Below are positions 14,202-17,445 of a stretch of 32,223 nt of DNA, in pieces. Both the position numbers and the translations under genes were made by a program. The DNA is from Cellvibrio sp. OA-2007 (lineage in GTDB: Bacteria; Pseudomonadota; Gammaproteobacteria; Pseudomonadales; Cellvibrionaceae), in the NCBI RefSeq assembly GCF_000953825.1, contig NZ_BBUL01000073.1:1-32223 (forward strand), read 5' to 3'. The number at the start of each line of letters is the position of its first letter. Position 1 is the stretch's first letter. The notes below the pieces were generated by a model. The model did no database searches and was not told the DNA's origin. It worked only from the letters and a program-made list of their open reading frames with translations.

Positions 14202-14220
14202 GTGTTCAACAATCGTTAGC

Positions 14221-14252
14221 AAAAAGGCCAAGCAGTAATGCTTGGCCTTTTT
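14221..14252 (+). terminator. Intrinsic terminator after rplQ
   Basis: AAAAAGGCCAAGCA (14221-14234) pairs perfectly with TGCTTGGCCTTTTT (14239-14252) around GTAA. A-tract and T-tract flank the GC core, so it could also work on the other strand. Confidence 0.92.
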
Positions 14253-14269
14253 GTTTTTGGAGTAAAAAT

Positions 14270-14299
14270 ACTTATGTGTCTGATTTTTGCCTCATAAGT
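14270..14299. promoter_or_regulatory. Inverted repeat upstream of the sRNA candidate
   Basis: ACTTATG (14270-14276) and CATAAGT (14293-14299) form a 7-bp inverted repeat with a 16-bp spacer, about 94 to 123 bases before the inferred sRNA start. It could be a regulator site. It does not match the GacA/UvrY consensus TGTAAG-N6-CTTACA, whose arms are in the opposite order. Confidence 0.3.
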
Positions 14300-14380
14300 C
14301 ACATTTGTCTGCTCGGTTCTATAGTCAATGTCGCACAAAAGTTTCAGCTATTGTCGACTTTTTTAAGATTAGAAAATCGC

Positions 14381-14386
14381 TAAAAT
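14381..14386 (+). promoter_or_regulatory. -10 element of the sRNA candidate
   Basis: TAAAAT matches the -10 consensus in five of six bases, with a start expected around 14393, just before the first GGA motif. No good -35 lies 16-18 bases upstream, which fits an activator-dependent promoter such as the GacA-controlled rsm promoters. Confidence 0.5.
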
Positions 14387-14392
14387 GACTAA

Positions 14393-14565
14393 CACAGGGA
14401 TGCTGATCAGGACAGGATGTTGTGATTAGAGGATTAAGTTTTAGGATGAAACTTATCTAGGGATGTGAAGACAATTAGGCATGATGCCGTACGATCATGA
14501 TGATCGGATTACCCAGGCAGGGAGCAACGGGGCTTGCAGGAAGCAAAGCCCCTATTTTTCTTTTT
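14393..14565 (+). ncRNA. Candidate CsrA/RsmA-binding sRNA (RsmY/RsmZ/CsrB-like)
   Basis: This roughly 170-nt non-coding stretch has nine GGA triplets (14398, 14410, 14415, 14431, 14444, 14461, 14506, 14521, 14539), most in AGGA or AGGGA context. ACACAGGGATGC at 14392-14403 matches 10 of 12 positions of the CsrA SELEX consensus (RUACARGGAUGU, from memory). One GGA is in the 7-nt loop of a 7-bp stem (14435-14441 with 14449-14455), the presentation CsrA prefers. Another is in the loop of the final terminator. Two further stems are GGCA/TGCC (14478-14488) and CGATCA/TGATCG (14492-14506). RNAs of this type sequester CsrA/RsmA and are usually activated by GacS/GacA. Assignment to a named Rfam family was not possible. 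Confidence 0.75.
14529..14565 (+). terminator. Terminator of the sRNA candidate
   Basis: GGGGCTT (14529-14535) pairs with AAGCCCC (14546-14552), and GC/GC pairs inside the loop expose AGGAA. TATTTTTCTTTTT follows. It ends seven bases before the convergent uvrA stop codon. Confidence 0.85.
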
Positions 14566-14571
14566 AGTAAA

Positions 14572-17445
14572 TTATGCTTTTGTTTTTTCGCTCTTGACGC
14601 GCTTAGCTTTTTTACTTGTGACGACATTCAGCATCGGGGCAAGGAATCGCCCAGTATGTGAATGCGTTAGTTGCGCTATTTCTTCTGGTGTTCCAGTTGC
14701 GATAATCTGGCCTCCGCCGCTCCCTCCTTCCGGCCCTAAATCAACTACCCAATCTGCAGTTTTAATTACATCCAAATTATGCTCGATTACCACAACGGTA
14801 TTGCCGTGATCGCGCAGGCGATGCAGTACGTTGAGCAATTGCTGGATGTCGTAGAAATGTAAACCGGTTGTGGGTTCGTCCAAAATGTAGAGCGTTTTTC
14901 CTGTGTCGCGTTTGGATAATTCTTTCGCCAGTTTTACCCGCTGTGCTTCGCCGCCGGACAAGGTTGTTGCTGACTGTCCTAAACAGATATAGGACAGACC
15001 CACATCGATAAGTGTTTGCAGCTTGTTGGCGATGGAAGGGACGGCATCAAAGAATGCACGTGCATCTTCAATTGTCATTCCCAAAACTTCGTTGATGTTT
15101 TTCCCTTTGTATTTCACATCCAGTGTTTCGCGATTGTAGCGTTTACCTTTGCAGACATCGCAGGGAACGTAAACGTCGGGCAAAAAGTGCATTTCTACTT
15201 TGGTTACACCGTCGCCCTGACAGGCTTCGCAGCGCCCGCCTTTTACGTTAAAACTAAAGCGACCGGGTTGATAACCACGTGAGCGCGATTCTTGAGTGCC
15301 AGCAAACAATTCGCGAATTGGCGTGAAGATGCCGGTATAGGTGGCAGGATTTGAACGCGGTGTGCGACCAATCGGGCTCTGGTCGATATCCACGCATTTA
15401 TCAAACAAATTCATTCCTTCGATTGACTCATAAGGCGCGGGTGTCAAAGTGGTCGCACCATTCAGTGCGGTTGCTGCCAGAGGGTGGAGCGTAGCGTTGA
15501 TTAGGGTTGATTTGCCCGAGCCAGAAACACCCGTCACACAGGTCATCAGGCCGACTGGTATTTCCAGCGTAACGTTTTGTAGGTTATTACCCTTGGCGCC
15601 TACAAGACGCAGCATCTGCTTCTTATCGAATGGGTTGCGCTTTTCCGGAATGGCAATCGACCTTGTGCCGCTTAGGTATTGGCCGGTAATCGAGTCCTTA
15701 TTGGCCATAACAGCTTTGACGTTGCCTTGGGCGATAACTTGTCCACCGTGTACGCCCGCACCTGGGCCAATGTCGATGACATGATCGGCTTGGCGGATGG
15801 CGTCTTCATCGTGCTCCACCACAATCACGGTATTACCTATATCGCGCAAATGGGTGAGGGTTTTGAGTAGGCGCTCGTTGTCCCGTTGATGTAAGCCGAT
15901 GGACGGCTCATCAAGAATGTACATGACGCCAACCAAACCTGCACCGATTTGACTAGCTAGGCGGATACGTTGAGCTTCACCTCCGGAAAGTGTTTCAGCA
16001 CTGCGATTGAGTGTTAGGTAATTTAGGCCTACATCCACCAAAAAGCGGAAGCGGTCGCGTAATTCTTTCAGAATCTTATCGGCGATGCCTGCTTTACGGC
16101 CGGTAAACGCCAGCTTCATGTAGTAATCATAAGCATCAGCGACGGGCATTTCGGTGATGCTTGGGAGTGGGCGCTCATCGATAAACACATTGCGCGCTTC
16201 TACGCGCAAACGTGTGCCTTCACATTCAGGGCAAGGTTGGCTTGATAAAAACTTGGTTAGATCTTCACGCACTGAATTGGATTCAGTATCGCGATAGCGG
16301 CGCTCCATATTGGTCAGCACACCTTCAAAGCTGTGGCTGCGTTTGTATACATCGCCGCGATCATTGATGTAGTTAAATTCGATAATCTCTTCACCCGAGC
16401 CGTACAGCACCGCTTCGCGCTGTTTGGCTTTGAGTTTTGCCCATGGTGTGTTCACGTCGAATGCATAGTGTTTGGCGAGCGAGGCGAGCATGTGAAAGTA
16501 ATAAACATTGCGTTTGTCCCAGCCGCGAATTGCGCCTTCGGATAGGCTCAATGCAGTATCTTGAATTACCTTATCTTCATCAAAAAATTGATGCACACCC
16601 AATCCGTCGCAAGTTGGGCAAGCACCCGCGGGGTTGTTGAACGAGAACAGACGCGGTTCGAGTTCGGTCAGGCTGTAATCGCAAATCGGGCAGGCGTGTT
16701 TGGATGAAAACAAACGGTCGGGCGCTTCACCGTCCATATAATTAATGCAGGCGATACCTTCTGATAAGTTCAGCGCAGTTTCAAACGACTCCGACAGGCG
16801 CAGTTTTAAATCTTCGCGCACTTTAAAGCGGTCGATGACAACTTCGACGGTATGTTTCTTTTTCTTGTCGAGTTTTGGTGTGTCATCCAAGTCGCAGAGA
16901 ATGCCGTCGATGCGCGCGCGAATAAAACCATCACGTTTTAGTTGTTCAAAGACATGCAGGTGCTCGCCCTTGCGGTCGCGAATCACCGGCGCCAGCAGCA
17001 TCAGCTTAGTGCCTTCCGGTAATGCGAGAGTCGTATCCACCATCTCGCTAATCGTCTGCGCGGTCAGTGGTGCGCCGTGTTCCGGGCAGCGCGGCTCCCC
17101 CACTCGCGCATAGAGCAAGCGCAGATAATCATAAATTTCAGTGATGGTGCCCACGGTAGAACGCGGGTTGTGCGAGGTGGATTTTTGTTCGATGGAGATG
17201 GCAGGGCTTAAGCCTTCTACGTGATCGACATCGGGTTTTTCCATCATCGATAAAAATTGGCGCGCATAAGTAGAAAGGGATTCCACATAACGGCGCTGAC
17301 CTTCGGCGTAAAGCGTATCAAACGCCAGTGACGACTTGCCCGAACCAGATGGCCCGGTAATCACCACAAGCTTGTCCCGTGGGATATCAAGATCAATGTT
17401 TTTGAGATTGTGAGTGCGTGCACCCCTGACAATAATTTTGTCCAT
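14572..17445 (-). CDS. uvrA: Excinuclease ABC subunit A
   Basis: The 957-residue product is full-length UvrA, the damage-recognition ATPase of nucleotide excision repair that works with UvrB and UvrC. Walker A motifs GPSGSGKSS (31-39) and GVSGSGKST mark the two ABC modules, each with LSGGEAQR. Zinc-binding Cys sets CPIC...CPTC and CEAC...CDVC are intact. The C-terminus carries an extra lysine-rich tail ([16 protein letters not shown]). It is convergent with the sRNA candidate and divergent from the MFS gene. A consensus -10 lies upstream, but I see no LexA box (CTG-N10-CAG) in the 185-bp spacer, although uvrA is SOS-controlled in E. coli. Confidence 0.98.

Follow-up and report, generated by a model that had tools for sequence, protein, structure and literature searches.

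Positions 14393–14565 (+ strand) of the window, by which we mean the whole 32,223-nucleotide stretch of DNA analysed, very probably encode a free-standing small RNA (sRNA) of approximately 170 nt that sequesters CsrA/RsmA. RNA sponges of the Csr/Rsm type adjust the level of a post-transcriptional switch with global reach, and the earlier note suggested that in this organism the switch could govern secreted enzymes and biofilm. The sponge reading, which an earlier note on this DNA had put forward, is supported by covarying hairpins with GGA loops, a conserved upstream box, sub-threshold matches of two copies to Rfam clan CL00106, and an RsmA-like CsrA. We also consider it reasonably likely that IS66 transposons of this genus carry a self-contained, GacA-box-driven CsrA-sponge cassette, that they spread and multiply it and exchange it between transposase lineages of approximately 34% identity, and that the copy between rplQ and uvrA either gave rise to this cassette or is a domesticated form descended from it.

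The upstream neighbour of the unit is rplQ, which encodes L17 (13809–14201, + strand; TIGR00059, 158.5 bits), and the convergent neighbour is uvrA (14572–17445, − strand; NF001503, 1589 bits). A terminator-like hairpin of its own was read from the sequence 3′ of rplQ at approximately 14220–14255, and is followed by the upstream box, the −10 hexamer, and the GGA-rich unit, in that order. The sequence features noted earlier were found again: nine GGA motifs in 14393–14565 (at 14398, 14410, 14415, 14431, 14444, 14461, 14506, 14521, and 14539), a perfect 7-bp stem-loop with GGA at 14435–14455, a terminator stem with an AGGAA loop at 14529–14552, a −10 sequence TAAAAT at 14381–14386, and a 3′ end 7 bases from the uvrA stop codon (14572–14574). 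The 10/12 match to what we take to be the CsrA consensus is ATCTAGGGATGT at 14455. On both strands of the window, 14393–14565 is the only place with nine GGA per 173 nt. The number of GGA motifs on its own is weak evidence, because nine were reached by 617 of 5000 dinucleotide shuffles (approximately 12%), against which the count is not unusual, and by 28 of 5000 mononucleotide shuffles. The homologues, not the GGA count, decide the case for an sRNA. The window RNA folded better than 200 of 200 shuffles (z −3.38). A simple consensus scan for promoters and terminators listed neither the −10 at 14381–14386 nor the terminator at 14529–14565, and its sole promoter-like site (14298–14325) was at the level given by shuffles; the terminator was called from reading of the sequence and from conserved pairs.

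We searched for homologues of the unit at the DNA level in 37 genomes, including its own. Clear homologues (E < 1e-6) were found in 12 genomes, all of the same genus, and most other matches were at chance level. The copies differ in length by one or two bases, which argues against coding. A covariance model, R1, was built from 15 aligned copies, which match it by construction; the window copy is one of them and matched at 14390–14563 with 172.8 bits. Against 21 genomes of the genus, R1 detected 25 copies with >75 bits in 13 genomes and a match at E 0.1 in 20. Searches of wider collections, each counting the own genome and run with stricter filters that lose weak matches, gave no strong homologue outside the genus, the best scores being 40.7 bits among 293 genomes of the order, 27.8 bits among 144 genomes of the family, and 27.7 bits among 369 genomes of the class. 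The highest of these belongs to a pair of weak tandem matches (29.2 and 40.7 bits; L062 and L077, G030:C77:71095–71386) in another family of the order, which are possibly distant sponge RNAs. The earlier note had made its proposal depend on conservation of the GGA motifs in related genomes, and the GGA loops were indeed conserved, within the genus.

The conserved structure was predicted from the 15 aligned copies using RNAalifold, which gave 31 pairs; 29 were tested, and two long-range pairs were left out. In the 29 pairs and 15 rows, 94.7% of the cells were paired, compared with 87.6% in shuffled alignments and 28.6–51.0% when the partners were slid, a control that favours the structure because it was drawn from the same alignment. 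Thirteen pairs had changed on both sides, compared with 7.3 in the shuffles (as many in 1 of 500), and 37 cells carried a two-sided change, compared with 12.3 (as many in 0 of 500), although kinship among the 15 rows inflates this control. The GGA loops were kept while the stems changed, and compensatory change was strong.

Hairpins 1 and 2 carry most of the covariation (9 of the 13 two-sided pairs). Hairpin 1 (14407–14425, + strand), with the loop AGGAT at 14414–14418, had two-sided changes in 5 of 7 pairs, and hairpin 2 (14435–14455, + strand), the perfect 7-bp stem with AGGA in its loop, in 4 of 5 modelled pairs. Hairpin 3 (14478–14488, + strand) had no pair with a two-sided change, hairpin 4 (14492–14506, + strand) had 2 of 5, and hairpin 5 (14517–14525, + strand), a 2-bp stem with the loop AGGGA, had 1 of 2. 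The intrinsic terminator (14529–14565, + strand), with its AGGAA loop and T-rich tail, had 98.7–100% of its cells paired. With each loop extended by one base at both ends, GGA was present in hairpins 1–5 and then the terminator in 15, 13, 10, only 5, 15, and 13 of the 15 rows, respectively. The window copy keeps GGA in loops 1, 2, and 5 and in the terminator, that is, in four of the six conserved hairpins, and its loops 3 and 4 lack GGA and read AUGAU (ATGAT in the DNA). Single minimum free energy folds of 22 copies placed 1 to 5 GGA per copy within hairpin loops. In 16 of the 22 copies, 3 or fewer of 100 shuffles placed as many GGA in such loops; in the other six, the window copy included, 7 to 47 of 100 shuffles equalled the number. 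For the window copy alone, 3 of the 9 GGA lay in hairpin loops of this fold, which was equalled by 8 of 100 shuffles.

Rfam at gathering thresholds gave no match in the entire window. With lax filters, 551 bases gave 22 matches up to E 10, and the best E value was that of the unit against CsrB/RsmB (RF00018), with 19.9 bits and E 0.0017 over the whole model (gathering threshold 71). A homologue in another genome (G004) matched PrrB_RsmZ (RF00166) with 22.6 bits and E 0.0021 (gathering threshold 44). Both models belong to Rfam clan CL00106, of which only the best match, CsrB, is kept for the window, and PrrB_RsmZ is unlisted there up to E 10. Ten loci scanned together against Rfam gave no match at E 0.1. 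The scan with these models had been suggested earlier as a check of the proposal, and both scores were far below gathering (19.9 versus 71 and 22.6 versus 44). Membership in a known Rfam family was considered and is ruled out by these scores. The unit is best read as a Csr/Rsm sponge by function that would form a new sequence family outside the Rfam thresholds.

Upstream of the unit, the conserved box TATAGTCAATGTCGCACA (14320–14337, + strand) is GacA-box-like, is conserved in position across the copies, and is a possible upstream activating sequence. A box of the form GTCAATNTCNYACA or near it was centred 58–60 bases ahead of the model start in all 25 copies with upstream sequence. The −10 hexamer (14381–14386, + strand) occurred as TA[AG]AAT at the same spacing in 19 of the 21 aligned copies with upstream sequence, the 22nd row having none. 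GacA boxes given in three papers include TGTAAGCATTCTCTTACA and TGTAAGCATTCGCTTACT (PMC4353343), TGTAAGN6CTTACA (PMC3171408), and TATAGCGAAACGCTTACA (PMC7911923). The match to TGTAAGN6CTTACA summed over 21 copies was highest at the offset of the box (151, versus a mean of 67.6 and an sd of 18.4 over all offsets). Copy by copy (n = 21), the box was the best site in 10 copies, tied in 4, and was beaten in 7. The window box alone matched the published GacA boxes at 11/18 positions, and 1328 of 2000 shuffles were as good. These results suggest that the upstream box weakly resembles a GacA site, and the unit may be under GacA control. The box pattern alone occurred 79 times in the 21 genomes of the genus, compared with 22 times for the reversed control. 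Among 31 box matches in 30 loci, 19 were followed by at least 8 GGA within 250 nt and 12 were not (one of these runs off the end of its contig). Visual inspection assigned one of the 19 to the window type and the others to two longer types, A and B.

The own genome contains two CsrA-family genes (PF02599 matches over the cut-off). The product of the first is RsmA-like, being identical to a chain of PDB 7yr6 at 48 of 52 residues, and has an arginine at position 44, which we presume to be important. The second gene is diverged (L133; G000:C19:31865–32014, − strand); it lies in a 94-codon frame, is over the Pfam cut-off, and gave no match among PDB sequences. Among the response regulators, one is clearly ahead of the others and is most likely the orthologue of GacA/UvrY, with 272.2 bits in the genome search and 271.2 bits as a protein, against an NCBIfam cut-off of 280 and 122.9 bits for the next regulator. 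We propose that a response regulator, most likely this orthologue, would bind the box centred approximately 60 bp upstream of the start, and that RNA polymerase would start near 14393 and stop at the GGA-loop terminator ahead of uvrA. The RNA would fold as a row of short hairpins with GGA exposed in most loops. Judging from the known biology of CsrB/RsmZ, CsrA dimers would bind these GGA loops and thereby be drawn off their target mRNAs.

We examined the rplQ–uvrA locus across the genus and located rplQ in 20 of the 21 genomes. Of these 20, 9 have a copy of the unit in the rplQ–uvrA gap that shows no IS ends, the window copy being one of them. In five genomes (G007, G012, G016, G017, and G019), uvrA is close behind rplQ and the unit is absent, and one (G005) has other sequence between the two genes. 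In a further four (G003, G009, G018, and G020), the unit was not seen in the stretch fetched behind rplQ, and that stretch does not contain uvrA. Two further R1 matches at rplQ loci, with 12.6 and 13.4 bits, are at chance level. Since close relatives such as G017 do without the unit at this locus, it is dispensable. In G006, an IS66-type copy with a GTAAGCGCAGC end, cut by the contig end, directly follows the rplQ terminator (L183, G006:C217); it occupies the site at which other genomes have the chromosomal copy. Other copies adjoin leuA (that of G009 and one of two in G020), and the G003 copy adjoins the gene that follows leuA in G009 and G020, as judged from its first residues. The second G020 copy lies at a contig end.

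The own genome (G000) has seven GGA-rich sRNA genes with the box or a variant of it: three of them are type A, type B, and the window copy, and the other four are accompanied by IS66 ends or remains. The IS66-associated copies are on C14, C19, C34, and C31, and three of them have box variants missed by the exact pattern. Type A (G000:C15:64479, L127) and type B (G000:C2:100366, L107) are longer GGA-rich sRNAs with the same box, present in many genomes of the genus. Neither type had an Rfam match at E 0.1; type A reached 13.2 bits (E 0.88) against PrrB_RsmZ, type B had no match to clan CL00106, and both scored worse in Rfam than the window and G004 copies. The regions of the C14 and C31 copies are shared with the genome G014, with identities of 100% over 7,719 bases (L082 1–7719/L087) and 99.97% over 5,646 bases (L085 1–5646/L088). 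Between the two genomes, the rplQ–uvrA copies agree to only 73%, and the species have otherwise diverged. This difference suggests recent transfer of the near-identical regions, with foreign contigs in one of the assemblies as a lesser possibility.

Most of the remaining copies adjoin an IS66 transposase gene, whole or reduced to a short remnant, that is convergent with the sRNA. The carrier elements encode HTH_Tnp_1, TnpB_IS66, and DDE_Tnp_IS66 proteins and have GTAAGCG ends; at G000:C34 and G006:C25, IS66-type ends were seen and tnpC was not. IS66_C (PF13817) was found at 26 places in 8 of the 21 genomes, one place being below the curated cut-off, and an R1 match of 77.2 to 155 bits lay beside 8 of these places. 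At 16 of the 26 places, 12 of them in G019 and many near-identical, the terminal repeat starts one base after the tnpC stop codon. In 7 of the 8 sRNA carriers, the repeat lies 266–343 bases past this stop with the sRNA in between; two of the seven are one region common to G000 and G014, and the eighth carrier is truncated by the end of its contig. The other two places comprise one without a stop in the locus and one without a clear repeat. In these seven carriers, the sRNA has the tnpC stop on one side and the terminal repeat on the other, which indicates that the gene can be cargo of an IS66 transposon. A GTAA[GA]CG end was present 37–76 bases ahead of the box in 14 of the 25 copies, whereas the 11 chromosomal copies (9 rplQ–uvrA and 2 leuA-side) all lacked it, a split that describes more than it tests because the copies were grouped partly by their IS remains. 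We considered whether the window copy is an IS66 remnant and rejected this, since no GTAARCG end was found upstream of its box and no tnpC remains were seen on reading the gap. To judge from its surroundings, the window copy is a chromosomal copy.

The C-terminal parts of TnpC from two carrier groups are only approximately 34% identical to each other, whereas those of the carrier-free elements of G019 are 68–71% identical to those of one carrier group, which suggests that the cassette was gained, lost, or exchanged between lineages of IS66 elements. In a tree of 22 copies, the IS-borne copies cluster, except for one G006 copy that is placed among the chromosomal copies; several branches have modest support, and the tree was midpoint-rooted for drawing only, so the direction of capture between chromosome and IS66 is not readable from it. 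At one locus (L094, 93–215), an sRNA copy is interrupted mid-way and the left end of a further IS66 comes next, as though an element had inserted into the cargo of another. Spread on plasmids or phages was considered and set aside, because a blastn search with the copy of G000:C19 (L083:4640–4912) gave no match in the plasmid and phage collections. At least 5000 plasmid records contain a related TnpC. Three plasmid IS66 relatives, from Marinomonas, Halioglobus, and Pseudomonas and among the 12 matches listed, had no cassette, and the one R1 match in those elements (5.5 bits, E 0.78) is at chance level. The cassette may benefit the element or its host; an IS66 element could employ it to relieve its own transposase mRNAs of CsrA repression or to change the behaviour of the host.

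Pure chance as the source of the unit is ruled out by the conservation and the covariation, though the GGA count alone could not have done so. A transcript end is a most improbable explanation: the unit fills the gap between convergent genes and stops 7 bases short of the uvrA stop codon, as a 3′ UTR or the terminators of uvrA or rplQ would, but rplQ already has its own terminator-like hairpin, and the same cassette with its box is found at the leuA-side locus and in IS66 elements, away from rplQ and uvrA. Improbable to a lesser degree is the reading that the unit is a structured element without action on CsrA, such as an Hfq-type antisense sRNA, and that its GGA runs are incidental. Its length and terminator fit many sRNAs, and 12% of dinucleotide shuffles contain as many GGA; against it, the loops keep GGA while the stems vary, and 19 of the 31 matches to the shared box precede GGA-rich stretches, two further RNA types included.

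There is a somewhat larger, though still low, probability that the window copy is decaying, either as a relic or as a member of low activity, and that the IS66-borne copies and the longer types do the sponge work. Two of its six loops lack GGA, several relatives lack the unit at the rplQ locus, and six further GGA-rich sRNA genes with the box or a variant are present in its own genome. Against decay, the box spacing, the −10, the terminator, and four GGA loops are intact and the RNA folds with a z of −3.38, and hairpin 4 is without GGA in 10 of the 15 rows, which makes the state of this hairpin in the window copy the usual one.

The PrrB/RsmZ (RF00166), RsmX, and RsmY RNAs of Pseudomonas resemble the proposed sponge in size class, GGA hairpin loops, an upstream box at a fixed distance, and an RsmA-like partner. 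They also occur as several paralogues per genome, as here, and duplications of rsmX have been described (PMC7911923). In contrast to PrrB/RsmZ, the box of the window family has diverged from the published GacA boxes, and some of its relatives are carried by IS66. CsrB/RsmB (RF00018) has a similar sponge layout, but its model comprises 356 positions and the window RNA is half as long. According to a Shewanella study, a transposase gene separates csrB1 and csrB2 (PMC3171408); this looks like an insertion between neighbours, not cargo. Within the IS66 family, the sRNA carriers differ by the extra stretch of 266–343 bases that holds the sRNA, whereas 16 of the 26 places in the genus end one base after the tnpC stop.

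In the titles and abstract openings of literature on IS66, CsrA/Rsm, mobile elements, and Cellvibrio, in which subscription journals are thinly covered, we found no description of a Csr/Rsm RNA as IS cargo. The new feature is the carriage of a probable Csr/Rsm-type sponge RNA by IS66. A sponge carried as IS cargo would provide a simple route for the duplication, movement, and loss of such RNAs, and how sets of Rsm sRNAs expand becomes directly testable. The IS200 5′tnpA sRNA, which originates from the transposase mRNA and reportedly base-pairs with the sRNA PinT (PMC12594629), is likewise a transposon-derived sRNA that regulates the host; unlike it, the IS66 copies are a separate cassette with its own promoter and terminator and are predicted to be a protein sponge. 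Plasmids and phages are known to carry CsrA homologues, RsmQ among them (PMC9928087, PMC7366521), and these are similar in that mobile elements tap the Csr/Rsm switch. Those elements carry the protein, whereas the IS66 elements described here carry its presumed antagonist RNA, and a mobile element with such a cargo would be the complement to the CsrA proteins of plasmids and phages.
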